Shown: positions 5,884 to 36,014, counted from the first letter of the stretch. The stretch: DNA of 36,181 bases from Chlorobiaceae bacterium (GCA_013334335.1 JAAXXR010000014.1:1-36181); one strand, 5' to 3'. Notes: generated by a model from the sequence alone, not told the origin. Translations and numbers: made by a program.

Positions 5884-5914
5884 GTCTTAACCTAACAAAG
5901 AACATCCCACAATA

Positions 5915-6625: not shown

Positions 6626-6938
6626 CAGTTATTACTCCTTGTTGTGTACGTTGGTTTGTACGTTGGTTGTGTTGTTGCTGAAAAAAGAACATGACGCACA
6701 TCGAAACGGATTCCGGATGGGAGGCCCGTTCCGGCCCGTCACTGCGTTCTCTCAACGAGAAGTTGGATATAATATAATTTAATTATCAAAAAATACAAAT
6801 TCGTAAGAAAAATTAAATCACAGGACCAATATTGTCTTAATTATTAAGTGAAACGCTCTTTGGTTATGAATTTGTTTTCCTTTTTGTGGCCATCTGCCTT
6901 CGCCAAAAGGCATCATCGTGATCAATTGACCTAACGTC
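6626..6938. other. AT-rich divergent intergenic region (313 bp)
   Basis: I see no gene here. On the minus side of the region, the porin leader carries the direct repeat TACGTTGGTT twice, at about 6649-6670. Positions 6767-6850 are strikingly AT-rich against the GC-rich surroundings and include two overlapping TATAAT boxes on the plus strand (6768-6778) and the palindrome CTTAATTATTAAG (6836-6848). These probably serve divergent transcription of the porin-like and anti-sigma genes. Confidence 0.5.
6769..6798 (-). promoter_or_regulatory. putative sigma-70-type promoter of the porin-like gene
   Basis: On the minus strand, TTGTAT (6798-6793) and TATTAT (6774-6769) are 18 nt apart. This would give a leader of about 135 nt that includes the TACGTTGGTT direct repeat. 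The surroundings are so AT-rich that other pairings are possible. Confidence 0.35.
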
Positions 6939-7358
6939 ATGACATATCAGCGGATAGTGTTTGCCAGCAGTGTCGCGCACTGTGGAGCCGTGAGGCGGTT
7001 CGTGCAATCATTCGGACGCATGGAGGGGTATTCAGAAGCCTTTGTTTCCGTGCTTGAACTGTGTGTGCAGGAGGCCTTCGTGAATGCCGTGTGCCATGGT
7101 AACGGTTCGGATCCCGAACTGCCCGTGACGATCACCATGCGGGCCGGTATCGATAACGCGCAGACGTTTCTCGATGTCGCTGTGGCGGATCGCGGGACAG
7201 GCTTTAGCCTCGACGGTCGCGGTGATTTTTCGTCTCGGGAAAGCGAAATGGCCTGTTCCGGCTGGGGAGTGCCGATGATTGTTCACTATTCCGATGCGGT
7301 CCGGGTGGAGAGACGCATCGACGGGAGTGTGCTGATATTGAGTTATATTCCATATTGA
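6939..7358 (+). CDS. RsbW-like serine kinase / anti-sigma regulatory factor (HATPase_c_2)
   Basis: This 139-aa cytoplasmic protein has the GHKL ATPase fold of the RsbW/SpoIIAB group: N-box QEAFVNAVCHGN (44-55, with E45 and N49), G1 box DRGTGF (84-89) and G2 box SGWGVPMI (107-114). Family members bind a sigma factor and phosphorylate a STAS-domain antagonist. Neither an RsbV-like protein nor a sigma factor is encoded nearby, so its partners must lie elsewhere. It lies 42 bp upstream of pgi, and AAGGAG at 7369-7374 is in the gap, so the two may be co-transcribed; a functional link to glycolysis is not shown. No clear Shine-Dalgarno precedes its own ATG. Confidence 0.85.
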   Translation: MTYQRIVFASSVAHCGAVRRFVQSFGRMEGYSEAFVSVLELCVQEAFVNAVCHGNGSDPELPVTITMRAGIDNAQTFLDVAVADRGTGFSLDGRGDFSSRESEMACSGWGVPMIVHYSDAVRVERRIDGSVLILSYIPY

Positions 7359-7400
7359 CTTTTTTCAAGGAGTTACCCGTTCACCACTAATTGAAACCCG

Positions 7401-9041: not shown

Positions 9042-9093
9042 GCGCCCTCAGCTAACCGGGCGAGGCTCCTGAAGTTCCGATGGAGGGTTCGCC

Positions 9094-9143
9094 AGAACAC
9101 AAAAGGCAGTCACGGTTTCCATCGTGACTGCCTTTTGTGTTCT
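9094..9143. terminator. long hairpin terminator between pgi and purB
   Basis: Arms 9094-9114 and 9123-9143 form a perfect 21-bp stem around an 8-nt loop. The stem has A-rich and T-rich flanks (ACACAAAAGG/CCTTTTGTGT), which suit convergent genes on both strands. A second, short hairpin GGCGCC-GAC-GGCGCC at 9212-9226 lies closer to the end of purB but lacks a U-tract. Confidence 0.8.
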
Positions 9144-9283
9144 CCTCCTGAGGTTCGTCGGTGACTATGCTGTTGCGTGTCCCCGGGTGCGCCGACCTCC
9201 AGCCAGGTAATGGCGCCGACGGCGCCTGATCATCAAATCAACTCCCAGGCTCGTGCTGCCTGCCGAGGCCATCAGCGTCCTGT

Positions 9284-10588
9284 TCAGAGACCGTTCCTGC
9301 TGAAGATGGTGTCGACGCTCTGTTTGAGCTTCTGCTGGATGGTTTCGGGGCTGAACAGCTCCGAAATTTCCGATTCCGAGACATGCCCCATGATTTCGCT
9401 GTCCTGCAGCACCAGTTCCCGGAGCTGTACCTTCTCCTCCCAGCTCTTCATGGCGTTGCGCTGCACCATGCGGTAGGCTTCCTCGCGGGTGAGCCCCTTG
9501 CCGGTCAGGGCCAGCAGCAGGGTCTGCGACAGGGTAAGGCCGTAGGAGGTGTCAAAGTTCTGTTCCATTCTCTCGGGATAGACCAGCAGGGTGTCGATCG
9601 AATCCCTGAAGGTGCGCAGCATATAGACGATGGCGATCGTGGAGTCGGGCATGATGACGCGCTCGACCGATGAGTGCGAGATGTCGCGTTCGTGCCAAAG
9701 GGCGACATTCTCCATGGCCGCGATCGAGTTGGAGCGGACGACCCGGGCAAGGCCGGTCAGGCGTTCGAAGGTGATCGGGTTGCGCTTGTGGGGCATGGCG
9801 GAGCTGCCCTTCTGCCCCTTGCTGAAGAACTCCTCGGTTTCACGAACTTCCGTGCGTTGCAGGTGACGGAGTTCCACGGAGAATTTTTCGATCGACGAGG
9901 CGACGATGGCCAGTGTGGTGGCGTATTCTGCGTGGCGGTCGCGCTGCAGGATCTGCGTCGATATGGAGGCGGGTTTCAGGCCGAGCTTCCGGCAGACGGC
10001 GGCCTCGATTTCAGGTGAAAGATGCTGGTAGGTGCCGACAGCTCCGGAAATTTTCCCGACCGAAATGTTTTCGAGTGCGCGCTTCATGCGCTCCAGGTTT
10101 CTGGTCATCTCCTGGTGCCAGAGCAGCAGCTTGAGTCCGAAGGTGGTCGGTTCGGCGTGGATGCCGTGCGTGCGGCCCATCTGCACGGTATACTTGTGCT
10201 CGACCGATCGTTTTGCGAGCACCACGATGAGGGACTCGATCTCGCTGACAATGATCTTTCCAGCGTCGCGCATCTGCATCGCCAGACAGGTGTCCCCCAC
10301 ATCGGACGAGGTCAGTCCCTCATGGATGTACCTGGAGTCAGGACCGACGTAGCCGGCGACGTTGGTCAGGAACGCGATGACGTCGTGCTTGGTCTCCTGC
10401 TCGATCGTCAGGATCTCCTCGACGTTGAATTTCGCTTTCTCCCTGATGGTCGACAACGCCTCGGCAGGTACCAGGCCAGCCTCGACACGGGCCTCGACGG
10501 CCGCGATTTCAAGTTGCAGCCAGCGTTCGAATTTCGCTTCGTCTGTCCAGATTGCCGAGATGTCTTTCGGCGAGTAACGTGGTATCAA
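9284..10588 (-). CDS. purB: adenylosuccinate lyase
   Basis: The product (434 aa) is a fumarase/aspartase-superfamily lyase that should act twice in purine synthesis, on SAICAR and on adenylosuccinate, releasing fumarate. The superfamily signature [11 protein letters not shown] is present at about 262-272, with the mobile-loop serine. TSSDVGDT (about 93-100) and [14 protein letters not shown] (about 138-151) are the substrate-binding histidine regions. Length and N-terminus ([14 protein letters not shown]) match the short bacterial PurB type. It is the last gene of a minus-strand run that includes the CCA-type nucleotidyltransferase, 64 bp upstream. The call is secure. Confidence 0.96.
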
Positions 10589-10652
10589 GTTCGGGTGACT
10601 TTAAGTTGTGAAAAGCGTCGCGCCATAATATAAAAAGCGGTGAGGAAAGCCT

Positions 10653-12107
10653 TCAGGGTTTTTTCGCCCCAGCCGCCTGGAGTTCCCGGTAGACCACCAT
10701 CACATAATCGAGCGCTGCCTGGCGGTCGTACGGGATCTCTCCGTCGATGATGGCGTTCTCCATGCGGGACTTGATCACGCCGATCAGCTTGCCTTCGGTG
10801 AGCTGGAGCATCTGCATGATGTCGTGGCCGCTGACCGGCGGCCGCCACTTGGCCAGGAGGTCCTTTTCTCCGACTTCGGCGATTTTCTCCTCGACGTTGT
10901 TGAAGTTCTGCATGATGCGCTGCACCTTGCGAGGGTTCTTGCTGGTCACATCCGCACGGCACAGGTTCATGAGGTCCTCCAGGTCGGGGCCGGCCTCGAA
11001 CATCAGGCGGCGAATGGCCGAATCGGAGATCTCCTCCTTGGAGAGCGGAATGGGGCGGTGGTGCATGCGGACCATCTTCTGCACGTACTCCATCGGTTCC
11101 AGCGGCCACTTCATCGATTTGAAGATTCTGGACACCAGCTTCACGCCCACCGCCTCGTGACCGTGGAAGGTCCATCCGGTGCCCTGGCTGAAGCGTTTGG
11201 TGACCGGTTTGGCGATATCGTGAAAGAGTGCGCCGATTCTCAACCAGAGCTTGTCCGACTGGGTCGCGATGTTGTCCACGACCTGGAAGGTGTGGAACAG
11301 GGTGTCCTTGTGCCCAAGTCCGTCGACCTGCTCGATGCCGGCCATGGCGTCGAGTTCGGGGATGATCTCCCTGAGCAGCCCGGTCGAATGCAGGATCTCC
11401 AGGCCGATGGAGGGCTTGCGGCACTGCATGATTTTCAGGAACTCGTTGCTGACCCGCTCCCTTGACACGATCTGGATTCGTGCGTGCATGGCGTTCATGG
11501 CATCCATGGTCGCGTTGTCGAGCCGGAAATCGAGCTGACAGGCGAATCTTGCCGCGCGCATCATTCTCAGCGGATCGTCGGAAAAGGTCTTTTCAGGATC
11601 GAGGGGCGTTTTGAGCAGCTTTTCGCCGATGTGACGGCGACCGTCGAACAGGTCGACGATCTCACCCCGGTTCTCGCGGTTCAGCCGGAGGGCAAGGGCG
11701 TTGATCGTGAAGTCCCGCCTCGAAAGGTCGTCCTCGATGGTGCCGATGCTGGTGATCGGTTTGCGCGATTCCGGATTGTAACTCTCCTTGCGGGCGCCGA
11801 CGATTTCGAGCTTGAAACCGATGCCGTCCTCGCCGGTAAGCTCGAGCTGCGCCGTCCGGAAGCGTTCGAACAGGACGAAATTCCTGCCATCCATCCGTTC
11901 GGCGATTTTTCTTGCGAACGCAATGGGTTCGCCGATCACCATGATGTCGATGTCGGTACAGGGGCGCCGCATGCAAAGGTCGCGGACATAACCGCCCACG
12001 AGGTAACAGGGCAGGTGTTCCTGGTCGGCGAGGTCTCCGATTCGGTAGAGCGTGGTTGGAATTGGGGTCTGTTCAGGGATCTCCATGCGATCGTACTCAG
12101 TATTCAT
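10653..12107 (-). CDS. cca: CCA-adding / poly(A) polymerase-type nucleotidyltransferase with HD domain
   Basis: This 484-aa class II nucleotidyltransferase should add or repair CCA at tRNA 3' ends, or act as a poly(A) polymerase; these cannot be told apart by eye. Motifs are VGGYVRDL (37-44), the catalytic TDIDIMVIG with two Asp residues (51-59), RRDFTINALAL and DPLRMMRAARFACQL. An HD domain (LRIGALFHDIAKPVTKRF) follows in the second half and suggests 2',3'-cyclic phosphodiesterase or phosphatase activity. ATG at 12107 is preferred to the TTG one codon upstream. Another ATG, nine codons further on, is also possible. It follows the Gfo/Idh gene by 11 bp, consistent with an operon. Confidence 0.9.
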   Translation of the reverse strand: MNTEYDRMEIPEQTPIPTTLYRIGDLADQEHLPCYLVGGYVRDLCMRRPCTDIDIMVIGEPIAFARKIAERMDGRNFVLFERFRTAQLELTGEDGIGFKLEIVGARKESYNPESRKPITSIGTIEDDLSRRDFTINALALRLNRENRGEIVDLFDGRRHIGEKLLKTPLDPEKTFSDDPLRMMRAARFACQLDFRLDNATMDAMNAMHARIQIVSRERVSNEFLKIMQCRKPSIGLEILHSTGLLREIIPELDAMAGIEQVDGLGHKDTLFHTFQVVDNIATQSDKLWLRIGALFHDIAKPVTKRFSQGTGWTFHGHEAVGVKLVSRIFKSMKWPLEPMEYVQKMVRMHHRPIPLSKEEISDSAIRRLMFEAGPDLEDLMNLCRADVTSKNPRKVQRIMQNFNNVEEKIAEVGEKDLLAKWRPPVSGHDIMQMLQLTEGKLIGVIKSRMENAIIDGEIPYDRQAALDYVMVVYRELQAAGAKKP

Positions 12108-12118
12108 CAAAAACAGGT

Positions 12119-13153
12119 TCAGTCAAGGTCGGCCGTGTTTTTCTCTATCTCGCTCGTGATCCTGCCGGCGACCATCAGTGCTTTTCTGCCTTCAGCGGAG
12201 GTGACCGCGGCCGGGCGGCCACTCCTCAGTGAGTCGATGAAGCGCTCCAGCTCAACCTTGAGCGCGTTGACCTTCGGGACCTCCGGGCTCACATAGTCGA
12301 GCGCGAGGCCGCCGAGCGAATCCTGGATCTCTCCGAACTGCTCGAGGATCTTCTTGGATGCGAAATTCCTGATCGGGTTCTTCGAGGTCAGCTGCTCCGG
12401 CTTTACCAGGCGGAACACCTCGGACTTTCCGGAGGTGAAGTCGAGCGAAGCGTAGCTCTTCGGGTGACGGCCGAAGAATCGCAACTTGCGGAGGCGGCTT
12501 CTGCTCAGCCGGCTTGCCGTGACATTGGCGATGGCGCCGTTGACGAACTCGATGCGCGCCGTGGCCATGTCGAGCTCGTTGGAAAACACCTTCACCCCCG
12601 AGGCGGCGATACTCCTGATGTCCGATTTGATGAGCGAAAGCACCAGGTCGATGTCATGGATCATCAGGTCGAGCACGACCGAGACGTCGGTGACGCGCCG
12701 GGAAAAGCCGCTCAGCCGTTCGGCCTGGATGTACATCGGTTCGCCGATGTACGGTTCCACCGCCAGGAGCGCAGGATTGAACCGTTCGATGTGGCCCACC
12801 TGGATCAGGAGCCCCTTGGCCTGTTCAATTCCGATCAGTTCATCCGCCTCGTCGAGGGTGGCCGTGATCGGTTTTTCGATGAACAGGCTGACTCCCGCTT
12901 CAAGCAACTGCTTCGAGATGGCGAAGTGTGAACTGGTGGTGGTCGCGATGACGACCGCGTCGCACGATCGGGCCATTTCGTCGAGCGAGTCGAAGCAGGG
13001 GACCGAATATTTCCCGCCGATTTCGCGGAGCCTCACCTGGTCAAGGTCGAACACCCCGGAAAACTGGACGTCCGGCGCTTCCGATGCGATCTGCTTCAGA
13101 AGGCCGGTATGGTATTCGCCGAGCTTGCCGACCCCTGCTATTCCTATCCGCAT
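12119..13153 (-). CDS. Gfo/Idh/MocA-family NAD(P)-dependent sugar oxidoreductase
   Basis: The product is 344 aa. An N-terminal Rossmann fold starts MRIGIAGVGKLGEYH, followed by the family motif FIEKPIT and the C-terminal alpha/beta domain. The phrases GHIERFNPA and VLDLMIHDIDLVL resemble homologues annotated as UDP-N-acetylglucosamine 3-dehydrogenase (GnnA-like), so a nucleotide-sugar substrate for lipid A or another glycan is plausible but unproven. The ATG at 13153 has a good GGAGAG Shine-Dalgarno and begins exactly at the nucleotide-binding fold. An upstream in-frame ATG at 13186 abuts the preceding stop but lacks a ribosome site and adds 11 unconserved residues. No partner aminotransferase is nearby. 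Confidence 0.85.
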   Translation of the reverse strand: MRIGIAGVGKLGEYHTGLLKQIASEAPDVQFSGVFDLDQVRLREIGGKYSVPCFDSLDEMARSCDAVVIATTTSSHFAISKQLLEAGVSLFIEKPITATLDEADELIGIEQAKGLLIQVGHIERFNPALLAVEPYIGEPMYIQAERLSGFSRRVTDVSVVLDLMIHDIDLVLSLIKSDIRSIAASGVKVFSNELDMATARIEFVNGAIANVTASRLSRSRLRKLRFFGRHPKSYASLDFTSGKSEVFRLVKPEQLTSKNPIRNFASKKILEQFGEIQDSLGGLALDYVSPEVPKVNALKVELERFIDSLRSGRPAAVTSAEGRKALMVAGRITSEIEKNTADLD

Positions 13154-13186
13154 GACACTCTCCGGTTGATTGCTTGTGCTTCTCAT

Positions 13187-14452
13187 CTAACTGGCAGGCT
13201 CGGCCGAAGGTTCTGGCACCGCCATGTCGTACTTGAACAGGCTCAGGGAGATGAGTGTTCCGACGACGGTCAGCGCACCGGCCAGGATGTAGGGATAACG
13301 GTGGTCGATGCCGTACAGGATGCTCCCGCTGAAGGGGCCCAGGATACGGGCCAGCGCGTTGACCGACTGGGCGAATCCCATGATCTTGCCCTGCTTCTGC
13401 TTGTAGCTGTACAGGGAGATCATCGAGATGTTGAGCGGGTTGACCAGGCTGGTGCCGATCGCGAAGAAGAACAGGATACCCAGGCCGAGCGAAAAGAGGG
13501 AGTCCTGCGGAATGAACGGGACGAAAAAGACCCCGACGAATGAGGCGATATGGCCGAACACCATCAGCTTGTGTTCGCCGATCCGTTTACTGAGCTTCGG
13601 CAGCATGCCGCCCTGCACAATGACCGAGATGAATCCTACATAGGCGAACAGGTAGCCGATCTGCTGTTCGGTGGTATGGAAAAACTCCTTCCAGAGCAGG
13701 ATGGCCGATACCTGCATGTTCACGATCGCCAGCGAATAGATGAAGTTGATGATCATGAGCAGGGCGACCGGCCTTGAGCTGATGGTGCTCCTGAGCATGT
13801 CCGCAATGGCGTCGCTTTTTCGCCTGAGGGAGGCGACGAACGAAAGATCGTGGTGTACGACCGCCGGTTTCCTCTTCAGCAGGGTGAGGATGCCGACGGC
13901 ATGCCCGTTTGATTCTGAGAGGAAGAAGATGGCGAGGATGAAGTTGCAGCCGTTGAGCACCGCGGCCACGATGCCCACCATCGAGATGCCGTAGTTGGTC
14001 ATGAGCACGCCGCCGATCAGCGGGCCGATGATGAACCCGATCCCGAAGGCGGCGCCGAGCATGCCCATCGCAGCCGAGCGGGTTTTCGAATCGGTCAGGT
14101 CGGTGATTGAGGCCTGGGCGGCCGAGATGTTCGCGGAGCCGATACCCGAAAGCGCACGAGCCAGGATCAGCAGGGGCAGGGAGACCGCCTGCGAGAAGAA
14201 CGCATAGGAGAGTGAAGCCAGGAAGATGCTCGACAGCATCACCGGGCGCCGGCCGATCTTGTCGCTCAGCTTTCCCCAGATCGGAGAGAAGATGAACTGC
14301 ATCGTGGAATAGATCGCCGCGATCAGGCCGATCATGAACGGCGAGGCCCCCAGCTCCTTCGCATAGGTCGGCAGCAGGGGAAGCACGATACCGAAACCGA
14401 TCAGGTCGAGAAGCACGGTCATGAACAGGATGACCAGCGGAGATTTTTTCAT
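13187..14452 (-). CDS. major facilitator superfamily transporter (TetA-like DHA1 type)
   Basis: The product is a 421-aa inner-membrane protein with about 12 hydrophobic segments. The MFS motif A between helices 2 and 3 is visible ([13 protein letters not shown]), as is the first-helix pattern [14 protein letters not shown] seen in tetracycline-type drug:H+ antiporters. The substrate is unknown. The ATG at 14452 is chosen because an upstream 63-residue extension is hydrophilic, unlike any MFS N-terminus, and would overlap the divergent methyltransferase start. The gene heads the minus-strand run leading into the oxidoreductase, with stop and next possible start touching at 13186/13187. Confidence 0.88.
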
Positions 14453-20713: not shown

Positions 20714-20740
20714 TGCCCTGCAAAGATTGATGTTCTTTCA

Positions 20741-20955
20741 CATGATAGCTGGTGCCGGCTTGAAAGCCGGAGAATAGGGAAGTACGTGGAAATCGTACAC
20801 TGTACCCGCAACTGTACAACGGCAAGCTGCCGCTCACAGGCATGGCCACATGCCTCGACGCCGCAGTCGCTGCAAGTCACTGCCCAGGTCCTCCAAGGAC
20901 GGGGCGGGAAGGCTGCATCGTTTTGGCCGCTAAAGTCAGGAGACCTGCCAGTTAC
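20741..20955 (+). promoter_or_regulatory. cobalamin (AdoCbl-type) riboswitch
   Basis: Conserved elements appear in the right order: GGTGCCGGC with its stem (20751-20769), GGAGAATAGGGAAG (20769-20782), the core CACTGTACCCGCAACTGTA (20799-20817), the B12 box region GTCACTGCCC (20876-20885) with GGGCGGGAAGGC (20902-20913), and the closing GTCAGGAGACCTGCCAG (20936-20952). Together these identify a cobalamin aptamer that should repress the downstream uptake and remodelling genes when cobamide is plentiful. The end points are approximate. Confidence 0.93.
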
Positions 20956-21125
20956 TTCTTTGCTGCATGACACGACTACGGGTTATAGTCAGGCAAAGCT
21001 GTACCAACCGGATGATTCCTTCAGGACAACATTTCCGCCAGAGCCAAAACTGCTCTCGGAGCTGCGTTTCCGGACCATTCCCGCAAGAGACCATCCAGGT
21101 ACGAAAGCCGCCTTATTTCTTGACC

Positions 21126-21160
21126 CCTGTCTGTTGATAGTTAGAACAATTCAACACAGG
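21126..21160 (+). promoter_or_regulatory. putative SD-sequestering hairpin (riboswitch expression platform)
   Basis: CCTGT (21126-21130) and GTTGA (21133-21137), separated by a 2-nt bulge, pair with TCAAC ACAGG (21151-21160) around a 13-nt loop. The right arm covers the start of the Shine-Dalgarno AGGA (21158-21161), which lies 8 nt before the btuB ATG. Formation of this stem would block translation initiation. No U-tract terminator is seen in the leader. Confidence 0.5.
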
Positions 21161-21169
21161 ACAACCAGC

Positions 21170-23131
21170 ATGAACAGAAAAACAGTGGCCATCGTCATGG
21201 TCGCGATGCTCTCCAGCCAAGGGCTGCGGGCGGAGGAAGCAAACAGGGCATCCACCTATGTCGGCGATGAGATCGTCGTGACATCGAGCAGGGTGAAGGA
21301 GCCGAAAAAGAGTCTGACTTCGAACATCACGATCATCGGTCGGGATGAGATCAGCAACTCCTCTGCCAAGGACCTCAGCGAACTGCTTGCCGAGAAGAAC
21401 ATCGGCCATATCCAGAAATATCCGGGGGCCTCGACTTCGGTGGGCATCAGGGGATTCAGGAGCGAAAGCCACGGCAACGACCTGATGGGCAAGGTGCTCG
21501 TGCTTGTCGACGGTCGGCGCGCCGGCACCGGCAACCTCGCCAAGATCATGACCGACAACGTCGAGCGCATCGAGATCATCCGTGGACCGGCGGCCGTGCA
21601 GTATGGTTCGGCGGCCATAGGTGGTGTCGTCAATGTCATCACGGCCAAAGGCAGGGAGTACCCGTCGATTTTCATCGAACAGAAGCTCGGTTCGAACAGC
21701 TACTCGAAAACGTCGGCCGGCGCGCAGGGTAAAATCGGCCGGCTCGATTTTGCCGGCAGCGTCTCGAAGTCGGATGCCACCAGCTATTCGACCGGAACGG
21801 GCGACACGTATCCGAACACCGGCTACAGCGACATGACCACCGCGAGCCTCAACGTGGGCTATGAGTTCGCGAAAGGGCACCGGATCGGTCTTCTCGCCCA
21901 TTCGTTCGACGTCGACAGGGCAGGCTCTCCCGGTTATCTGAGCCAGGCCGACCCCTATGCCTACACGGTACAGAACAACCATTCGGTCGATTTTATCTAT
22001 GAAGGTGCGACCGCCGACCGGCAGGTTTCGTGGATGGCCCGCTATTTCACCGGAATGGACACCTACCGTTACGTCGACCCGACCTATGCCTACGAAAGCC
22101 GAACCGATATCGACCAGCGCGGGGCACAGGCCCAGGCAACCTGGCAGCACGATCTCCTGCGCCTCACCGCAGGCGTCGACTGGCTCAAGTATGAGCTGGA
22201 GTCGACCCTGACGCCGACCTGGACCTCCTACGAAAACCCGGCACTTTTCGCCCTCGGCAAATACGGCCTGTTCGATGACCGGTTGATCCTTACCGCGGGG
22301 CTTCGTTACGACGATTACCAGGTTGACATGCTCGACAGCGAGGGTTCGTCGAGAAGCACCGACAACCTCGCGCATCAGGCGGGCCTTGGCTGGCAGATCA
22401 ACGATGTGGTGAAGCTCAGGGGGTCGTATGCCGAAGGGTTCCGCATGCCCTCTGCCAGGGAGCTTGCGGGCAATATCACTACCTATGGCTCCACGTACAT
22501 CGGCAATGCGGATTTGAAACCGGAGTCGAGTGCTACCTGGGAGGCAGGAGCGGATGTCGCCTGGAAGAAGCTTGCAGCTTCGGTGACCTGGTTCAGTACC
22601 GACTATACGGACATGATCGAGCCGACGGCGACCTCCTCCAGCGTCTCTACCTACCGCAACGTCGGCAGCGCGACGGTGTCAGGCATGGAGGCGAACCTCT
22701 CCTGGGTGTTCAACCCGGCGGACACCTCATGGGAGCTGGAACCGTATGTCGGTTACACCCACCTGTTGCGCTATGAAGACAACGCCACCGGTGACCATCT
22801 GCTCTACACCCCGGAGTGGAACGCCAGCACGGGACTCCGGGTACGCGACGGCCGAGGCTTCAGCGGGGCATTCAACCTCGCCTGCACCGGCAAGAGCATG
22901 ATCCAGGACTATGAGAGCAACTACAGTGGAACGGTCATCACCAAAGGAGCTTTTGTCGTTGCCAACCTCTCCGCCTCGAAGAAATTCCCGCTTGAACGGC
23001 AGGGCAAGAACGGGAGGGGGATCACGCTGAAAGCTGAAGTCGACAACCTGTTCGACCGCGACTACCAGTTTGTCAAGGGTTATCCGATGCCCGGCCGTAC
23101 ATTTGTGTTCGGGCTGCGGGCCGATATCTGA
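21170..23131 (+). CDS. btuB: BtuB-like TonB-dependent cobamide outer-membrane receptor
   Basis: The product (653 aa) should import cobamides across the outer membrane using TonB energy. A signal peptide covers about 1-21 (GLRA before EEANR). The TonB box is DEIVVT (33-38). The plug domain follows, with VLVLVDGRRAGTGN, VERIEIIRGPAAVQYGS and AIGGVVNVIT, then a 22-strand barrel ending VFGLRADI. The ATG at 21170 has AGGA 8 nt upstream and gives the proper signal peptide. The cobalamin riboswitch upstream supports the substrate. The gene heads the operon; bluB follows after 100 bp. Cobamide specificity rests on that context rather than on known binding residues. Confidence 0.92.
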   Translation: MNRKTVAIVMVAMLSSQGLRAEEANRASTYVGDEIVVTSSRVKEPKKSLTSNITIIGRDEISNSSAKDLSELLAEKNIGHIQKYPGASTSVGIRGFRSESHGNDLMGKVLVLVDGRRAGTGNLAKIMTDNVERIEIIRGPAAVQYGSAAIGGVVNVITAKGREYPSIFIEQKLGSNSYSKTSAGAQGKIGRLDFAGSVSKSDATSYSTGTGDTYPNTGYSDMTTASLNVGYEFAKGHRIGLLAHSFDVDRAGSPGYLSQADPYAYTVQNNHSVDFIYEGATADRQVSWMARYFTGMDTYRYVDPTYAYESRTDIDQRGAQAQATWQHDLLRLTAGVDWLKYELESTLTPTWTSYENPALFALGKYGLFDDRLILTAGLRYDDYQVDMLDSEGSSRSTDNLAHQAGLGWQINDVVKLRGSYAEGFRMPSARELAGNITTYGSTYIGNADLKPESSATWEAGADVAWKKLAASVTWFSTDYTDMIEPTATSSSVSTYRNVGSATVSGMEANLSWVFNPADTSWELEPYVGYTHLLRYEDNATGDHLLYTPEWNASTGLRVRDGRGFSGAFNLACTGKSMIQDYESNYSGTVITKGAFVVANLSASKKFPLERQGKNGRGITLKAEVDNLFDRDYQFVKGYPMPGRTFVFGLRADI

Positions 23132-27495: not shown

Positions 27496-28023
27496 ATGGT
27501 ACAGAAACGGGTTCTCCTCTTTACAGGCAACGGCAAGGGCAAGAGCACGGCCGCGTTCGGCATGCTTGCCCGCGCGCTCGGCCACGGCATGAAGGTCCGG
27601 GTCATCCAGTTCGTCAAGGCCCAGGAGGGAGTCGGTGAAGTGCTCTTTTTCACGCGATTCAGCAACGTCACCTGGGACCATTACGGCAAGGGATTCCTGC
27701 CCCGGGACGCTTCCAGCCCCATGATGGAGTCGCATCGCCAGGCTGCCGAAGCCGGTTTCGAAGAGGCGCTCGATGCGCTGTGTTCCGACGAGTACGATTT
27801 CGTGCTGCTCGACGAGATCTGTTTTGCGCTCTCCAGGGAGCTCATACCGCTCGAACCGCTGGTTGATGCCATCCGCCGGGCTCCCGAAGGAAAGATTATT
27901 GTCCTGACCGGACGCAACGCTCCCCAGGAGCTGATCGAGATCGCTGATACGGTCACCGAGATGCGCCAGATCAAGCACGGTTATGAGCAGGACCTTCTGT
28001 CACAGGCCGGGGTGGAGGAGTGA
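27496..28023 (+). CDS. cobO: cob(I)alamin / cob(I)yrinate a,c-diamide adenosyltransferase (CobO/BtuR)
   Basis: The product is 175 aa, CobA/BtuR/CobO type. The P-loop GNGKGKST (11-18), FVKAQEGVGE, DFVLLDEICFAL and IVLTGRNAPQELIEIAD are characteristic. It transfers the adenosyl group of ATP to the reduced cobalt, needed both for de novo synthesis and for salvage of imported corrinoids. The ATG at 27496 is preferred over an upstream in-frame start that lies inside cbiB and adds a non-family segment. Its TGA shares bases with the btuC start (TGATG at 28021-28025), and GGAGG just before would serve btuC. Confidence 0.94.
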   Translation: MVQKRVLLFTGNGKGKSTAAFGMLARALGHGMKVRVIQFVKAQEGVGEVLFFTRFSNVTWDHYGKGFLPRDASSPMMESHRQAAEAGFEEALDALCSDEYDFVLLDEICFALSRELIPLEPLVDAIRRAPEGKIIVLTGRNAPQELIEIADTVTEMRQIKHGYEQDLLSQAGVEE

Positions 28024-29063
28024 TGCAATCGCCAGGGGGTTGCCCGGCAGGTGGCGACGGATGCCGAAAACTTCCCGCGAAGGGGTCGCCGAACCGTATG
28101 AAGGCGGCCCTGTTTCTTGCCGCCGTGCCGCTCCTGCTCGGGATCTCGATGCTGCTCGGCCCGTCGGGCATCGGGCTGCCGGACAGCTCGACCATATCGG
28201 GGCAGGCGATCCTCTCCCTTCGTTTTGGGCGCTTCTTCATGGGGCTCATGGTAGGAGCGGCACTGTCGGCTTCAGGCACGGTTTTCCAGGCGATCCTGAG
28301 AAATCCGCTGGCGGAACCCTATGTGCTCGGAGTGAGCGGAGGAGCCGGCCTGGGGGCGGCGCTGAGCATCCTGGTGGGCGGCGGCATACTCGGCGTGGCG
28401 GGATTGCCCCTGACCGCATTCGTGTTCGCCGTGATCACCCTGATGGCCGTCTATGGTATCGCCAGCCAGGGCGGCGGCGCCCCGTCGGTCTACAGCCTGA
28501 TCCTGAGCGGGGTCATCATCAGCGCCATCTGTTCGAGCGTCATCATGTTTCTTGTTTCGACGGCTGACTTCGAAGGTATGCATACGGTGGTCTGGTGGAT
28601 GCTCGGCAACCTCCAGCCCGGTACGCTCCAGGAGCAGCTCGTTTCCCTGGCGTTCATCGCTGCTGCCATCGGTGCCCTGTGGATGCTCGCCCCTGCGCTC
28701 AACGTGCTGACGCTCGGCCGGGAGATGGCCCACTACCAGGGGCTCAACGCCGACGTCGTCATCAAGTCGAGCCTCCTGTTGGCCACCCTCCTGGCCGCGA
28801 CGGCGGTCTCCATGGGGGGGATGATCGGCTTCGTCGGCCTTATCGTACCGCACGTCATGCGGATGCTGTTCGGTCCGGACCACCGCTGGCTGATCCCCGC
28901 TTCGGCCGTTGGGGGGGGGACCTTCCTGGTGCTGTGCGACGCGATCGCCCGCAGTGTCATGGCTCCGGTCGAAATACCCGTAGGCGTCGTCACGGCGCTT
29001 TGTGGCGGACCTTTTTTCCTCATCATTCTCCGCAGGAAGATGACCCATGCCTGGATCGCATGA
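28023..29063 (+). CDS. btuC: BtuC-like cobamide ABC-transporter permease (FecCD family)
   Basis: This 346-aa inner-membrane protein has about ten helices. FecCD-family marks are RFGRFFMGLMVGAALSASG, QAILRNPLAEPYVLGVSGGA (the cytoplasmic coupling region) and GFVGLIVPHVMRMLFGPDHR. It should pair with BtuD encoded next and the BtuF-like lipoprotein at 17050-17937. ATG at 28023 is backed by GGAGGAG. A second in-frame ATG at 28098, after 25 residues, begins at the first helix and may be the true start. A run of nine G (28911-28919) near the 3' end encodes Gly-Gly-Gly and is in frame. Its end overlaps btuD by 17 bp. Confidence 0.93.
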   Translation: MQSPGGCPAGGDGCRKLPAKGSPNRMKAALFLAAVPLLLGISMLLGPSGIGLPDSSTISGQAILSLRFGRFFMGLMVGAALSASGTVFQAILRNPLAEPYVLGVSGGAGLGAALSILVGGGILGVAGLPLTAFVFAVITLMAVYGIASQGGGAPSVYSLILSGVIISAICSSVIMFLVSTADFEGMHTVVWWMLGNLQPGTLQEQLVSLAFIAAAIGALWMLAPALNVLTLGREMAHYQGLNADVVIKSSLLLATLLAATAVSMGGMIGFVGLIVPHVMRMLFGPDHRWLIPASAVGGGTFLVLCDAIARSVMAPVEIPVGVVTALCGGPFFLIILRRKMTHAWIA

Positions 29064-30339
29064 CCTGAAATCTCCGGCGCTCGCCTTCAGGGCGGTAACG
29101 GCCGGCTATCGCAACCGGCCGGTGCTTCGCGGCGTTGAGTTCGAGATCGCGGAGGGTGAGTTCGTCTCGGTCATCGGGCCGAACGGCTCGGGCAAGAGCA
29201 CGATGCTGAAGAGTGCCACCGGGCTCATCCGTCCGGATCAGGGCAGGGTCGAACTTTTCGGCAGGGAGGTCGGCGCCCTGAAGCCCCGCGAGCGGGCTTC
29301 GCTCATTGGCGTGGTGCCCCAGAGGCTCGAGTCGCCCATGGCGTTCACCGTCGGGGAGATCGTCATGTTCGGCATGAGCGCCTCCCGTGACCGGTGGGGC
29401 TCGCCCGGGCCGAAAGAGCTGGACAGCGTCGAACGCGCCATGATCTACACCAATGTCCTCGACCTTAAGGACCGGCTCTTCAACGAATTGAGCGCCGGAG
29501 AGCAGCAGCGGACGGCGCTGGCGATGGCACTGGTCCAGGAACCCCGCATCATCATGCTCGACGAGTCGATAGCGCACCTTGACATCAACCACAGCCAGGA
29601 GGTGCTCCGGATATTGATGAACATCAATCGACAGGAGCGGGTCACGGTGCTGCTCGTCAGCCATGACCTGAACCTCGCGGCCCAGATCGCCGACCGGTTG
29701 CTGCTGCTGGAGTCGGGCCGGCTCGTCAGGAACGGTTCGCCGGGCGAAGTGATGGAGCAGGAACTGCTCAGCCGCGTCTACGGTTGCGAACTTCGCGTGC
29801 GGCACGACCCCTACGGTGGACATCCGGTCGTCACAGGTGCGCTCGATTCGCTGCTGCGGCGCGCCCCGCTCCGCAAGCGCCTCCATGTCATCGGAGGAGG
29901 GGGGTCGGGCATCGAGCTGTTCAGGCGTCTCCTGATCGAAGGTTTCGAGGTGACGGCCGGCGTGCTCAACCGTCTCGATTCAGATGCCGAGGCGGCACGT
30001 GCGCTCGACATTCCCTGCGTCCTCGAGCAGCCCTTTTCGGCTGTCGGGAGCGCCGCATACGAAGAGGCCCTCCTGATGGTCGCAGGAGCTGACGGGGTAA
30101 TCATCGGCCCGGTGCCCTTCGGGTCGGGAAATGTGGTGAACCTCGAACTCGCGGCTGAAGCGTTGCGGGCCGGAAAACCGGTCTGGATGGCTTCCGGGAT
30201 CGGTTCGCGCGATTACACAGCCGACAGGGCCGCGGCCCATGCAGCCGAACGGCTGAACAACGGCGGCGCCGTGGAGTGGTCCGGTATTCATGAACTGATG
30301 GCCCGTCTCGAACGTGACGTCATGAACCCTCAAACATGA
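29047..30339 (+). CDS. btuD: BtuD-like cobamide ABC-transporter ATPase with extra C-terminal domain
   Basis: The product (430 aa) is much longer than the usual 250-270 aa. The ATPase half has Walker [10 protein letters not shown] (44-52), the signature LSAGEQQR (about 149-156), Walker B IIMLDES (about 169-175) and the H-loop LLVSHD. Residues from about 275 form a second domain starting [20 protein letters not shown], a Gly-rich Rossmann-like loop, then [23 protein letters not shown] do not know its function; it could sense or bind a nucleotide or corrinoid. It overlaps btuC by 17 bp and the CbiR-like gene by 4 bp (ATGA at 30336). The ATPase part should power cobamide import. Confidence 0.92.
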
Positions 30340-31133
30340 AGATGAACCGTTTTCCTTTCAGGCTCGGCACCACCTCGTACATTGTACCGGACGAGATCAT
30401 TCCAAACATCCGATACCTCGCCGGCAAGGTGCGTGATGTCGAGCTGGTGCTGTTCGAATCCGATGAATTCAGCAATCTGCCTTCCCCCGCAGATATTGCA
30501 CTGATGGCCGATCTGGCCGGCGATCACGGACTTACCTACTCGGTGCATCTTCCGCTCGATGTCTATCTCGGGCACCCCGACCGGAGCGAACGCCAGCGAT
30601 CGGTTGGAAAGTGCCTGAGGATCATCGAACTGGTGCGACCGCTGCCCAAATCGGCCTACGTCATGCATTTCGAAGCCGGGCCGGGGGTCGACGTCAACGG
30701 GTTCACTCCCGGCGAACGGGCGCGTTTCACGGAGAGCCTGGGGGACTCCGCATCGATGCTGCTGGAGGGTAGCGGGGAACCTGCCCCGATGTTCTGCGCA
30801 GAGAACCTCAACTATCCGTTCGGGCTGGTCTCGGCGGTGGTCGAGGAGGCGGGCTTTTCGGTCACGCTCGATGTCGGACATCTCGTGTTCTACGGCTTTC
30901 CGGTGGAGGAGTACCTCGAACGCTATCTGCCCAGGACCCGTGTGCTGCACATGCACGGCACGACCGGCGGTCGCGACCACAACTCCCTCGCTTTCATGCC
31001 TCCCGAGGTGCTTGACCTGGTCGTCCGCGCGCTCGTCGCCGACGGTCGGCATGACCGGGTGTTCACGCTGGAGATCTTTTCCGAACCGGACCTGGACTCG
31101 TCGGTCGCGGCACTGCAACGCTACCTTGCGTGA
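30336..31133 (+). CDS. cbiR: CbiR-like cobamide-remodelling hydrolase (AP endonuclease 2 / TIM-barrel family)
   Basis: This 265-aa protein has a sugar-phosphate isomerase/AP-endonuclease-2 type TIM barrel. Likely metal ligands and barrel motifs are [12 protein letters not shown] (N-terminus), [55 protein letters not shown] and TLEIFSE. The cobamide-remodelling enzyme CbiR, characterised in Akkermansia muciniphila, belongs to this family and cleaves the nucleotide loop so that the lower ligand can be replaced. Position after btuCD, within a riboswitch-led operon with bluB, makes CbiR the best match. Reading-frame overlap with btuD is 4 bp, and its stop is 3 bp from the stop of the convergent usher gene. 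Alternatives are another sugar epimerase-like enzyme. Confidence 0.82.
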
Positions 31134-31136
31134 CGG

Positions 31137-33821
31137 CTACGGTTTGCTGATCGGTGATCCGGAAATGCCGGTGGCGCCATCGGAAGGTGGCGGATCGGCG
31201 GTGTTCAGCTCCACGCCGCTCAGGTAATCCCCCCTGACGATGACCTCCCGCGACCGGGAGGGTCCGAACCGCTGTCCTGAAAGCGAGACGATCCTGAGCC
31301 GGTAGGTTCCGGGTTTGAGCCCGTCGGTCCGGTAATCGCCGAACTCATTGGTCGACACCTTTGCCACGACCGTTTGGTGAGCGTCGAGGATCTCGATCAT
31401 GGCATTGCCGACGCCCGCGCCATTCTGGTCGACCACCCTGCCGTCGATGCCGTACATGGCGAGGACCGGAATGTTCACGTTCGTGACCGCGCCGTTCGTG
31501 ACCTCCACAAGCACCTTTTTCTTCTCGACGGAGAGCTCGATCGGAAGATTTTCGGTATCGACCGTGACCGTATAGAGCCCGGGCCTGAGATTGCCGACGA
31601 AGAACGAGCCATCGACCTGACGCTGGTTCAGGCGCCTGCCGTCGAGAAGCACGCTGACGTCATTGATGTCGGACGAGGTGATCCTGGTGTCGCCGGCAAT
31701 GGCGATTTTGCCGGCCAGGCCGCCTCGGGTGGTGGTGATGGCGCTTCGGTCGATCGGGAACGGACGCAATCCGGAGAATCCGAGGTCCCAGCTCAGGGTG
31801 CAGCCGAAGAAATGGCGCGAGAGGGGCGGCATGATGAACTCCATGTCCTCGTTCGTGGTGACGAGGTTTTGGGCAAGGGCCATGTTCCAGCTGTACTGCA
31901 GGGCGATTTTGAGACCAGCGTTGAGGTAACGCACCCATTTGCCTGAGTATCCGAACTCCTTTCTCGAGCGGGAGACGCCAAGTTCGACAACGTCGAAACG
32001 GGTGGCTTTCGGGTACCAGTCCAGATAGGCTCCTGCCATGTCGTTGCCGCTCTTGAAGGCGTGCTCGTAAATGAGCCTTGTTTTCAGGTTGTTTTGCAGG
32101 CTCTTGTTCCATTCGAACGATGCGACTCCCGATTCATGGATGACACGAAGGTCGGAGGTCGATGAAAAGGTCTTGTCCGCCTCGTAGCGATAGCGGCCGG
32201 ATTCCATTGGTATCGCCGAGAGTCTCAGCGTCCGGAACGGTGAGACATAGCCGCCCGGAAGCAGGAACCGTCGTGTTTCGATTCCATTTTCGCGCGACTT
32301 TCTGCCATAGACGAGCAGGGTGAGCGGCTCGATCGGGGTCGCCGAAAACCGGAGCCATTGTTGTGTCTGCTGCTGGGCTCCGACGAAGCCGAAATCGCTT
32401 TCGTTCGACTGCGACAGGAAGCTGACGGACCACCCCTTGCCGTAACCGTCGATCCTCAGGTCGCTTCCAAACCGCTGGTTTGCCTGCGTGCCGTAGATCG
32501 AGGTCGCCCAGTTGCGTCCCAGCGAGAAGATCGTACCTGCCGAGTACTCTCCGGTGGAGGTGACCGGGTTGTACTGCGCACCGGCGTCAATGGTGATCCG
32601 GTCATTCAGGCCGTACTGCACCTGGAAATGGCCGGTGCCGTCTCCAGAGCTCGAATTGTTCCGGTCAATAAGGGGATTTCCTGTCAGCCCGAACCCACCG
32701 CGAACAAGCATTTCGCCTCCCGGCAGGCTGCCGTTCATGACCGACTGGGTGTAATCGAGGATCGCAAGCGGTTTGTCCATCGTCGAGCGTTCGTAGATAT
32801 AGACCTCGGTCTTTCTCAGGTCGGCGCCCATCCGCACGTTTTCGAATGCAAACCGCCCGTCGAGCTTGATCCGTACCCTGGCGACAGCCCTGCCGTCAAA
32901 ACGGAGCTCCGCGATGCCCGCCACCGGGCCGCTTCCTTCGATGGTACGGTTCAGGTTCCGGTTCAGGGCGACAAAGAGGTCGGTTGACGAACGAGAGGAG
33001 GTATCAAGGTAATCGACGATATTCCGGTTGTTCCAACCGAACTGGACGCCGGTGAAGTCGCTGTTCATCGATTCCGGCGACAGCTGGTTCGTGCCCGTGC
33101 CCAGCCTCAGCGCGAAGTGCTTCGAGAAATCGGTCCAGTGGTATCGCTTCAGAATCATCTCTTCGGAAGGGTCCCCCTGGCTGTCCAGGTCCCACACGCC
33201 ACCGGCAAGACGTCCTCCAGCCTGCAGTTGCAGGGAATTTGAGGAGAGCCCGTGAAAGTCGCGCTGCATGCCGGCGTCGATGGACAGAAACGAGAGGGAG
33301 CCGGATGGGGCGGAAACATCAGGCACCGGTGCCGATCCCTTTCCTTTTCCGGCAGTTCTTGCGGCCACCCAGGGTACGTCGAGCGTTGCGGCATACAGGC
33401 GCATGTCGAACACGGCCTTGACCAGAAACGAGCTTCTCAGCGACGAAAAGGAGATGTACGGTTCGTTCTCGAACAGCTTCAGTTCGCCTTTGTCAAACGA
33501 AAGGGTTCCTACCGAAGTGGCGAAGCTGGTGCGCCCGTCTTGAGCGGGGTTCTCTTTCAGGCCGGTCTGTTGGATGAACAGGGCATAAGGGATCCAGTAG
33601 TCGTTCGCGGTTTTGTAGAGTACCAGGTCGCCGGCCGATTTCCGGTTGACTACCACTCCCGCGGCGAGGGGTTCGTCGCCAGCTTTGGCCGATACCCGCA
33701 CCGGATCTGGTGCTGACGATCCGGCGTTCGAGGCCAGGATCGGAGCGGCCAAGGGGCCAGCATGGGCAAGCACCATACAAAGGCAGGCGGTGCGCAGGGT
33801 TTTGCGGCAACGGTTCGGCAT
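31137..33821 (-). CDS. FimD/TcfC-like outer-membrane usher with Ig-like C-terminal modules
   Basis: The product is an 894-aa secreted protein with a signal peptide of about 30 residues (PILA before SNAG). The central part is rich in beta strands with alternating residues, as in a large barrel. A plug-like stretch (FENVRMGADLRKTEVYIYERS) resembles usher sequences. After the barrel, NLRPGLYTVTVDTENLP is the type of phrase found in alpha-type (CS1/TcfC) ushers, followed by a carboxypeptidase-regulatory-like domain (GIDGRVVDQNGAGVGNA to LKPGTYRLRIV) about 100 residues from the end. ATG at 33821 is chosen over a TTG at 33836. The gene follows the chaperone gene by about 20 bp. An outer-membrane pore for subunit assembly is inferred; the family is divergent. 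Confidence 0.75.
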   Translation of the reverse strand: MPNRCRKTLRTACLCMVLAHAGPLAAPILASNAGSSAPDPVRVSAKAGDEPLAAGVVVNRKSAGDLVLYKTANDYWIPYALFIQQTGLKENPAQDGRTSFATSVGTLSFDKGELKLFENEPYISFSSLRSSFLVKAVFDMRLYAATLDVPWVAARTAGKGKGSAPVPDVSAPSGSLSFLSIDAGMQRDFHGLSSNSLQLQAGGRLAGGVWDLDSQGDPSEEMILKRYHWTDFSKHFALRLGTGTNQLSPESMNSDFTGVQFGWNNRNIVDYLDTSSRSSTDLFVALNRNLNRTIEGSGPVAGIAELRFDGRAVARVRIKLDGRFAFENVRMGADLRKTEVYIYERSTMDKPLAILDYTQSVMNGSLPGGEMLVRGGFGLTGNPLIDRNNSSSGDGTGHFQVQYGLNDRITIDAGAQYNPVTSTGEYSAGTIFSLGRNWATSIYGTQANQRFGSDLRIDGYGKGWSVSFLSQSNESDFGFVGAQQQTQQWLRFSATPIEPLTLLVYGRKSRENGIETRRFLLPGGYVSPFRTLRLSAIPMESGRYRYEADKTFSSTSDLRVIHESGVASFEWNKSLQNNLKTRLIYEHAFKSGNDMAGAYLDWYPKATRFDVVELGVSRSRKEFGYSGKWVRYLNAGLKIALQYSWNMALAQNLVTTNEDMEFIMPPLSRHFFGCTLSWDLGFSGLRPFPIDRSAITTTRGGLAGKIAIAGDTRITSSDINDVSVLLDGRRLNQRQVDGSFFVGNLRPGLYTVTVDTENLPIELSVEKKKVLVEVTNGAVTNVNIPVLAMYGIDGRVVDQNGAGVGNAMIEILDAHQTVVAKVSTNEFGDYRTDGLKPGTYRLRIVSLSGQRFGPSRSREVIVRGDYLSGVELNTADPPPSDGATGISGSPISKP

Positions 33822-33841
33822 GGGGGATGATGACAACTGCT

Positions 33842-34672
33842 TTACTGAAATACCTTCTCAATGGCTTGCGTGCCGATTTTACCCGACAAGGCCACCACGA
33901 AACCCTCCCGGACGACCGGTAACTCAAGTTTTTCCGTGATGGTCCGCCGATGGCCCGGAAGCACCGGCGTGCTGTGCAGCGTTCCTGATGCAATCAGGCC
34001 CGCCGGTGTGGGGTTGGCTTTGGGATTGTCATTCATCTCCCGCATCACCTTGAAGCCGGGGAACGTGCCGGCTTTCCAGACCGTGTAGTTGCCAGTCAGC
34101 CGTGTATGCACGTTGCCGCTGTTGCGGACCAGCACCTTGATGGACGAAGAGGCCTTGTCGAAGGTAATGCTTGTGAGTTCCGCCGATTCGTGTTTTGACC
34201 CGCTGTAGCCGTAAACGGCCATGCCGTAACGGAACAGGACCTGGACAGCACCGCTCTCCTTCTTTACCGCCTCCGGGCTTTGCTCGCTCAGGTAGATCAT
34301 CGCCCGGTGTTCTCCGGGTTCCGGTTTGACCGAGGGTCTCACCGAGTAGCGGATGACCTGGCTTGCGCCTGGATCGATCGTGAACGAGACCGGAGAGACA
34401 AGCATCCAGCGATCCAGCGACTGGGCGTCGCCGGGTATCAGTTTCACATGGTTCTGTTCATCGAGGGTCCAGTTGTAGAGCTCGACCTTGACGCTCACCG
34501 GCTCCTTTTTCAGGTTCTGCATCCTGATCGATCCGTTGACCGGCTTGTTTTCGATGGCCAGCTCGACCATGCTTGGAGAGATAGCGATCTGTCCCGGAGG
34601 AGCCTCTGCGGCACCGGTTCCGGTGAAAGACACTGCGATGAGGAGAAGAACGAGAAGGATCAGGCGTTTCAT
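33842..34672 (-). CDS. PapD-like periplasmic fimbrial chaperone
   Basis: This 276-aa protein has a signal peptide (LLLIAVSFTGTGAAEA) followed by an immunoglobulin-like domain with ISPSMVELAIENKPVNGSI, VELYNWTLDEQ and ASQVIRYSVRP, which parallel the A, D and G strands of PapD-like chaperones. A second beta domain begins near AELTSITFD and includes LVRNSGNVHTRLTGNYTVW. Chaperones of this type hold pilus subunits in the periplasm and hand them to an usher, which is encoded directly downstream. It is slightly longer than the usual 230-250 aa. The strict family residues cannot be confirmed without an alignment, but gene order supports the call. Confidence 0.75.
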   Translation of the reverse strand: MKRLILLVLLLIAVSFTGTGAAEAPPGQIAISPSMVELAIENKPVNGSIRMQNLKKEPVSVKVELYNWTLDEQNHVKLIPGDAQSLDRWMLVSPVSFTIDPGASQVIRYSVRPSVKPEPGEHRAMIYLSEQSPEAVKKESGAVQVLFRYGMAVYGYSGSKHESAELTSITFDKASSSIKVLVRNSGNVHTRLTGNYTVWKAGTFPGFKVMREMNDNPKANPTPAGLIASGTLHSTPVLPGHRRTITEKLELPVVREGFVVALSGKIGTQAIEKVFQ

Positions 34673-34688
34673 GGGGATACGGTATGGG

Positions 34689-35255
34689 TTATATGATCGT
34701 GATGTTGATGGTTATCGTTGTCCCCGTTGTCTTGTAGCTTCCCGATCGGGTGGCGTTCGAGAGGTCCAGGGTCATGTTGGCATATCCGGAGTAGAGTTTG
34801 GTGCTGCTTTTGTAGGTAATACTGCTGGTCGACACCGAACTGATCGTGACGCGGGAGGTCGCCGACGGGATGCCCGTGATGACGAGGGTCGGATTGGTGA
34901 GTGTATAGTTCGCCGTGATGTTTCTCGTCGACACGTTGTCGGTATAGGTCCAGAACAGCAGATTGGTTTTGGTGATGGTCGTCGTGCCCTCGGTCAGGCT
35001 GATGTCGGTTCCGGAGACGTCGCCGCCGTCGAGAGTCGAGTTTCCACTCCAGCTCGCGTGCGGCTGACCTGCCGCGAGGCCGAAATCTGCTGCCGTGAGC
35101 GTAACCGAGACTGCTTTTGCCGAAATGGTCGCCGCACCGAGCAGGCGTGGAAAGAGTGCAAGCAGCAGCAAGGTGATAACCGTGAGGCGTCCGGGCAGTG
35201 TTGGCCAGTTACGGTGGATTCTCTGCGGGTACGGTGCGTCTGGTGACTGGGGCAT
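34689..35255 (-). CDS. secreted beta-rich protein, putative fimbrial subunit
   Basis: This 188-aa protein has a late hydrophobic segment (about 24-40, VITLLLLALFPRLLGA) that would act as a signal sequence, then a Ser/Thr-rich chain without cysteine and full of alternating hydrophobic residues. The final strand, TGTTITINITII, has the alternation expected of a donor strand or the C-terminal groove partner of a chaperone-usher subunit. It lies 17 bp upstream of the chaperone gene. I do not recognise a named family. The N-terminal 23 residues before the hydrophobic stretch are unusually long, so the real start may lie downstream, though I see no better start codon. Confidence 0.65.
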   Translation of the reverse strand: MPQSPDAPYPQRIHRNWPTLPGRLTVITLLLLALFPRLLGAATISAKAVSVTLTAADFGLAAGQPHASWSGNSTLDGGDVSGTDISLTEGTTTITKTNLLFWTYTDNVSTRNITANYTLTNPTLVITGIPSATSRVTISSVSTSSITYKSSTKLYSGYANMTLDLSNATRSGSYKTTGTTITINITII

Positions 35256-35290
35256 GGGCTGCGAGAGGGTCTATTCACCGTTCAGGTGTA

Positions 35291-35911
35291 TTACAGGGTA
35301 ACTGCCGAGATCGTGATGGTGCCGGTGTAGTCACCGGAGACGTAGGTGTTGGTGAAATTGAGTCCCATGAGCACGTCGCCCGTCGTTGAATCCACCTTCT
35401 GGACGCCGTTGAGGTTGGCTGAAATCGAATTGCTTGCCGTTGAGGCGAGCGCTCCGTCAACCATGACCTGAAGTTTCGTGACGCCGATGGTGGACGATGT
35501 CGAGGCTTTGGTGAGGGTGGTCGGGCCGGTGACGCTGACCGTCGCCTTGCCGGTAGGGGAGAACCCCCGGATCGCCCAGACGTTCCTGAGGTTGATCGTG
35601 ATGCTCGCGCCCCTGAGCGCAGCCGAACTGGCATCGGTCAGGGCGCTTGTGGTGAGTGCGCCGGTGCCGGTGATCTCCTGGTCGCCGCCACTGATTCCGG
35701 TCTGTTCGTAGGTGCCGTGGTCAAGCTGCTCGCTCTGGCCGGAGAGACCGAGATTGATACGGGTGAAGTAATCGAGGATGATCACATCCGGAACGACCAC
35801 GGTCACTTTCGAGGTGCCGCTTGCCGTCTGGGTCGCACCATCAGATGTCGTCGGTATTCCGGCGACCAGAAGTGCTGCTCCCAGCGTTAAGGTTCGAAGC
35901 CTCTTGTTCAT
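35291..35911 (-). CDS. secreted beta-rich protein, putative major fimbrial subunit (spore-coat-U-like)
   Basis: This 206-aa protein has a clear signal peptide ending TTSDGA (about 26). The mature chain is Thr/Ser/Gly-rich, without cysteine, and ends SGDYTGTITISAVTL, close in style to the C-terminal strand of spore-coat-U/chaperone-usher subunits (GxYxGTITIS). VVPDVIILDYFTRINLGL near the N-terminus could be the donor strand. ATG at 35911 is used; a TTG seven codons upstream would lengthen it slightly. It is the first gene of the four-gene minus-strand cluster, which suits a highly expressed major subunit. No family name is certain. Confidence 0.65.
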   Translation of the reverse strand: MNKRLRTLTLGAALLVAGIPTTSDGATQTASGTSKVTVVVPDVIILDYFTRINLGLSGQSEQLDHGTYEQTGISGGDQEITGTGALTTSALTDASSAALRGASITINLRNVWAIRGFSPTGKATVSVTGPTTLTKASTSSTIGVTKLQVMVDGALASTASNSISANLNGVQKVDSTTGDVLMGLNFTNTYVSGDYTGTITISAVTL

Positions 35912-35986
35912 TGGCAGGGGTTTAATTCTCAAATTTAATGATGTTTATCGAGTTTTCAAGCCGATACGTCGCTCCGATGCTGCGAC

Positions 35987-36014
35987 ATCATGTATGTTTT
36001 TGGAATAACGTCAA
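35987..36014 (-). promoter_or_regulatory. putative promoter of the fimbria-like operon
   Basis: On the minus strand, TTGACG (36014-36009), a 16-nt spacer and CATGAT (35992-35987) lie about 75 nt before the first subunit gene. TTAATTAA just upstream of the -35 could be an AT-rich UP-like element. A second TTGACG at 36073-36068 has no good partner. The remaining sequence to 36181 shows no gene. Confidence 0.4.

Follow-up and report, generated by a model that had tools for sequence, protein, structure and literature searches.

A probable minimal chaperone–usher secretion system of divergent, non-classical type in Chlorobiaceae

Four adjoining genes of a Chlorobiaceae bacterium very probably encode a complete but minimal chaperone–usher (CU) secretion system of a divergent, non-classical type, and by homology, as judged from their sequences, they belong to the CU superfamily. 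CU pilus machinery is known mainly from Proteobacteria. The genes are four intact, co-directional open reading frames on the minus strand (35911..31137) of the window, the whole 36,181-nucleotide stretch of DNA analyzed here, and they encode, from 5′ to 3′, subunit 1, subunit 2, a chaperone, and, as the last gene, an usher, just as the initial annotation had described them (Table 1). The CU reading is drawn from profile homology of the usher and chaperone set against controls, from hallmark residues of the chaperone, from a pilin-like C-terminal strand, and from conservation of the operon; the chaperone–usher interpretation of the initial annotation is thus supported as a whole by several independent tests. 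No paper on CU pili in green sulfur bacteria was found in the open-access literature, and a description elsewhere is possible.

Table 1. Features of the operon, with positions counted from the first nucleotide of the window
Feature	Position	Strand	Basis
Subunit 1, putative major pilin, 206 aa, signal peptide, no cysteine	35291..35911	(-)	ORF, homologues, C-terminal strand pattern
Subunit 2, putative minor or tip subunit, 188 aa, signal peptide, no cysteine	34689..35255	(-)	ORF, homologues
PapD-like periplasmic chaperone, 276 aa	33842..34672	(-)	PapD_N, archaic chaperone profile, hallmark residues
Divergent outer-membrane usher, 899 aa as listed	31137..33836	(-)	19-member family, archaic usher profile
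Plug-like Ig domain within usher barrel, about residues 298-352	32781..32945	(-)	Profile-profile alignments
Usher C-terminal transthyretin-like (CarboxypepD_reg) domain, residues 793-869	31230..31460	(-)	PF13620
Promoter-like site TTGACG-16-CATGAT, weak, upstream of subunit 1	35987..36014	(-)	Consensus scan

The genes are closely packed, with gaps of about 35, 16, and fewer than 25 bp in operon order. Signal peptides were seen by inspection in all four products, in keeping with the proposal that the small, cysteine-free proteins are secreted. Subunit 1 starts at ATG 35911, the listed TTG (35932) lying upstream of it, and the usher probably starts at ATG 33821 (894 aa) and not at TTG 33836: all 19 homologues keep the methionine that is Met6 when translation is read from the TTG. 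The single putative promoter of the initial annotation did not hold up: the site upstream of subunit 1 matches 9 of 12 consensus positions, and since the scan found 3 such sites where 1.3 ± 0.8 were expected, a count not clearly above chance, it is no evidence of a promoter.

Full-length relatives of the usher were found in 19 genomes, all Chlorobiaceae, in a search of 198 genomes of the phylum, and the usher is absent from at least 22 sampled Chlorobiaceae genomes (G173 and G181 counted among these), so that its distribution is patchy. The order subunit(s)–chaperone–usher recurs in 18 neighborhoods of the relatives, each with two to about five subunits. This conserved order, together with frames that stay intact at 30–70% identity, argues for selection on the operon.

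On the plus strand, cobamide genes (28020-31133) converge on the operon, and the gene after the usher is likewise convergent in many of the relative loci. The initial annotation had remarked on the neighboring cobamide locus, and the adjacency itself stands: in about 10 loci the same ABC/TIM-barrel cobamide genes adjoin the operon tail to tail. In the remaining loci, however, it occupies other surroundings, away from them, and because the genes are convergent and the adjacency is not conserved at all loci, it says nothing on function and we rejected a functional link. A cobalamin riboswitch (RF00174, 84.7 bits) was also detected in the window at 20733-20966 on the plus strand, upstream of a large ORF (20786-23131). 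In a related species (G149), a DUF4402-type subunit–subunit–chaperone–usher operon (L073, G149:C8:65000-80000, 5691-13660) stands beside cobamide ABC and permease genes that share 79% and 84% identity with the window's; a chromosomal site of one type is occupied by two distinct CU families in these related species.

A search with the usher profile PF00577, suggested in the initial annotation, matched none of the 19 ushers of the Chlorobiaceae family, and nothing scored above the cut-off in the window's own genome or in any of 394 Bacteroidota-phylum genomes, the E. coli control being positive. CarboxypepD_reg (PF13620), present in 19/19 members and detected at E=8e-15 in the usher of the window, is the one Pfam domain that clears its cut-off comfortably. 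Searches of the PDB with single proteins or profiles gave no significant match for the usher barrel, tblastn of the window usher against plasmids gave no match, and the AlphaFold2 model, from a two-sequence alignment (window and L031), has a pLDDT of 28.5, too low to count for or against an usher fold.

Usher homology emerges from profile–profile comparison, in which the family aligns with a profile of eight archaic ushers from plasmid records at E=1.3e-18 over 676 columns (1.8e-7 with an earlier profile of three). The alignment spans profile positions 53-855, and the barrel is predicted from this profile homology. These E-values are single comparisons of small alignments, to be judged against controls, which gave 0.23-0.29 for reversed profiles and 0.15-0.52 for TonB receptors, LptD, and BamA; against the archaic usher profile, a reversed profile gave 0.23 and TonB receptors 0.37. 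E. coli ushers match at 1.2e-7, and because they reach only 1.2e-4 once the C-terminal domains are removed, the case for the usher rests on the archaic comparison. In the archaic alignment three parts of the Chlorobi usher find their counterparts: the N-terminal domain, the plug, where GPVAGIAELRFDGRAVARVRIKLDGRFAFENVR lines up with the plug of archaic ushers, and the first C-terminal domain, where VTVDTENLPIEL lines up with the archaic D..LPLD motif. The plug also aligns with that of FimD.

The silence of PF00577 and the lone CarboxypepD_reg domain would also fit an outer-membrane barrel of unrelated origin that carries transthyretin-like domains, beside a PapD-like protein working outside pilus assembly, and orphan PapD-like genes without ushers do occur in Chlorobiaceae. 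We consider this very improbable: the alignment to archaic ushers survives removal of the C-terminal domains (7e-11 for residues 50-700, the N-terminal, barrel, and plug part), TonB receptors, LptD, BamA, and reversed profiles do not match, and linkage to subunits with pilin C-termini is fixed. A FimD-like usher, as originally named, is supported by profile homology to both archaic and E. coli ushers, with all controls at E>0.1.

Evidence for the chaperone is of the same kind. A PapD_N search, likewise suggested at the outset, succeeded for the family, matching 14 of its 20 members (best 8e-8), but left the window protein itself just under the cut-off (E=3e-4; 21.2 bits against 23). Profile comparison gave E=6e-21 against eight archaic chaperones (0.61 when reversed) and 5e-7 against classical chaperones of E. 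coli; searches of the PDB returned PapD at E=0.1-0.5, below significance. One proline is invariant, or nearly so, across CU superfamily chaperones (CsuC P59, EcpB P60), an arginine (R89 of CsuC/EcpB) is found in archaic and alternative chaperones only, and this arginine and a D2 arginine–tyrosine pair (CsuC R174/Y196, EcpB R148/Y169) hold the subunit C-terminus in non-classical chaperones (PMC4654587). EcpB P60, R89, and R148, numbered by counting along mature EcpB, align onto P94, R123, and R191 of the Chlorobi chaperone, each kept in 19/20 members; the spacing from proline to first arginine is 29 residues in both, and R191 aligns with R148 gap-free. The D2 anchor tyrosine is absent, its position being an invariant proline (P236) in 20/20. 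With these hallmark residues, the family-wide PapD_N matches, and the archaic profile, the designation of this protein as a PapD-like chaperone is well founded.

Chaperones of this kind also occur apart from ushers. The window's own genome encodes an isolated PapD-like protein (G000:C79:27320-27628; L103, about 8321-8629) with no usher beside it, as do relatives (L104, 7777-8634; L105, 8085-8963), and the site is conserved among them. Some Chlorobiaceae carry pairs of subunit 2 and chaperone with no adjoining usher (L117, 7511-9048; L118, 6540-8231; L078, 3159-4559), possibly accessory sets that use an usher from elsewhere.

Homologues of subunit 1 were found by BLAST in 17 of 18 relative loci, in some as several copies, and homologues of subunit 2 lie directly upstream of most chaperones. 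An alternating hydrophobic C-terminal strand is the pattern of CU pilins. For subunit 1, the subunit-like alternation that had been read from the two small proteins proved exact: counting back from the C-terminus, all 24 sequences have hydrophobic residues at positions -4, -6, and -8 and none has one at -5, such residues are rare at -7 and -9, and an invariant glycine lies 14-17 residues from the end. Subunit 1 is similar by profile to subunit 2 (E=1.9e-8) and to DUF4402 subunits (1.8e-6; reversed control 0.044), and DUF4402 subunits to archaic pilins (2.8e-9), which suggests links to DUF4402 subunits and known pilins that are real but thin. No paper on DUF4402 was found in the open-access literature. 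The SCPU profile, the third named in the initial annotation, and other Pfam families including fimbrial ones found no match in 24 + 18 subunits. Mature subunits are mostly cysteine-free across the family; archaic pilins carry a conserved disulfide (CupE, PMC10104325). The AlphaFold2 model of subunit 1 (window and L031, a two-sequence alignment) has a pLDDT of 36.5, again too low to speak for or against an incomplete Ig fold. Immediately 5′ to some subunit genes in Chlorobiaceae, inspection shows what look like genes for response regulators or sensor kinases (L040, 4443-7197; L075, 1340-4176; L078, 523-2604), and in L040 a regulator piece and subunit 1 are duplicated in tandem.

Could the operon be an ordinary archaic (sigma, Csu/CupE-like) one acquired from Proteobacteria and merely evolving fast? 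Among described classes, archaic ushers and chaperones are the nearest profile matches, and the order subunit–chaperone–usher is that of archaic plasmid operons. Yet in a quickly built tree with small taxon sampling a single group (SH-aLRT 95) unites the Chlorobi chaperones, separate from the archaic and the classical ones and nearer to Bacteroidota and two Deinococcus chaperones, with weak deep branches (82-87), and the operon lacks a subunit disulfide, an SCPU match, a downstream two-domain tip gene, and a PF00577 match. We judge this reading improbable and, because several defining archaic features are missing, file the operon as a divergent non-classical variant; the want of PF00577, NCBIfam, or SCPU matches agrees with the divergence originally ascribed to the set.

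The gene content bears on what such a system would secrete. No adhesin gene is recognizable in the operon, and a CU system whose product is an amorphous coat or a polyadhesin, not a pilus with a tip, would account for the presence of only two single-domain subunits, for the lack of a two-domain adhesin gene, and for an usher gene that closes the operon ahead of a convergent neighbor. We hold this to be the less likely outcome, though a credible one: in relatives the subunit genes have multiplied and diverged, as expected for multi-subunit fibers, a point that is not decisive.

We infer instead that the operon forms a fiber, with distinct subunit roles and a part in adhesion. Each Sec-exported subunit would adopt an Ig-like fold short of one strand; the chaperone would grip the subunit C-terminus through Arg123 and Arg191 and donate the missing strand; the N-terminal domain of the usher would recruit the chaperone:subunit complex; and donor-strand exchange would join the subunits, as they pass through the barrel, into a thin fiber at the cell surface. 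Subunit 1 probably makes up the shaft, and subunit 2 is probably a minor or tip subunit.

Outside Chlorobiaceae, the chaperone matches Bacteroidota operons that encode subunits with pilin-like ends, a chaperone, and a protein of 900–1500 aa. This second usher family aligns with archaic (9e-15), E. coli (1e-12), and Chlorobi ushers (9e-10), has a weak PF00577 match in 2/13 members and a SPOR domain in 7/13, and occurs in 88 of 394 Bacteroidota-phylum genomes and 32 of 170 genera, some weaker, partial matches counted; it is present in 17 Chlorobiaceae genomes. Loci of this family include L106, L107, L108, L109, L112, L113-L116, L119, and L120, and no earlier account of such operons was found in the open-access literature. 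On two Deinococcus plasmids (L068, 5920-10554; L070, 5884-10593) a related chaperone adjoins a large protein with a transthyretin-like domain, and as the match is mostly to that domain we do not claim these proteins as ushers. On balance, we favor the view that CU secretion is widespread in Bacteroidota (in the GTDB sense, including Chlorobiaceae), with at least two usher families missed by PF00577 that are non-classical lineages separate from the classical, alternative, and archaic ones.

Were green sulfur bacteria to have CU systems, and roughly one in five of the sampled Bacteroidota genomes a related usher family that has gone unseen, the pathway would reach further than the literature consulted here describes; surveys of secretion systems that rely on profiles would also be missing ushers. 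The operon is a concrete candidate for a surface fiber of green sulfur bacteria, and contact with partner cells, as in phototrophic consortia, or with sulfur, both put forward in the initial annotation as possible roles, therefore becomes testable by deletion. If the disulfide and the tyrosine anchor have been lost, that would tell which parts of the CU mechanism can be dispensed with.

Set beside known systems, the operon is most like the archaic (sigma; Csu, CupE) class, with which it shares the order subunits–chaperone–usher, a homologous usher (E=1e-18) and chaperone (6e-21), the chaperone proline and both anchor arginines, and the subunit C-terminal strand pattern. It differs in an usher invisible to PF00577 whose C-terminal domain is recognizably CarboxypepD_reg, in cysteine-free subunits without an SCPU match, in a proline at the tyrosine anchor, in having no two-domain tip adhesin gene after the usher, and in a host outside Proteobacteria, Cyanobacteria, and Deinococcota, the range named for archaic systems in the articles consulted. 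Classical pili (type 1, FimA/C/D) have the same usher domain order with the plug inside the barrel (E=1.2e-7) and a PapD-like chaperone (5e-7), whereas the Chlorobi chaperone bears the non-classical D1 and D2 arginine pair, FimF/G/H-like genes are missing, and the subunits are single-domain and without a disulfide. Of the alternative (alpha) E. coli common pilus (EcpA-E), EcpB shares the three residues P60/R89/R148 (P94/R123/R191), but EcpC does not match the Chlorobi usher profile significantly (E=0.05) and no EcpD-like adhesin is encoded. The DUF4402/SPOR-usher operons of Bacteroidota and some Chlorobiaceae have an usher family of their own, in which a SPOR domain is common, and subunits closer to DUF4402 and SCPU, but they share with the operon described here the arrangement of subunits, chaperone, and large usher-like protein, with homologous usher (9e-10) and chaperone (4e-17).
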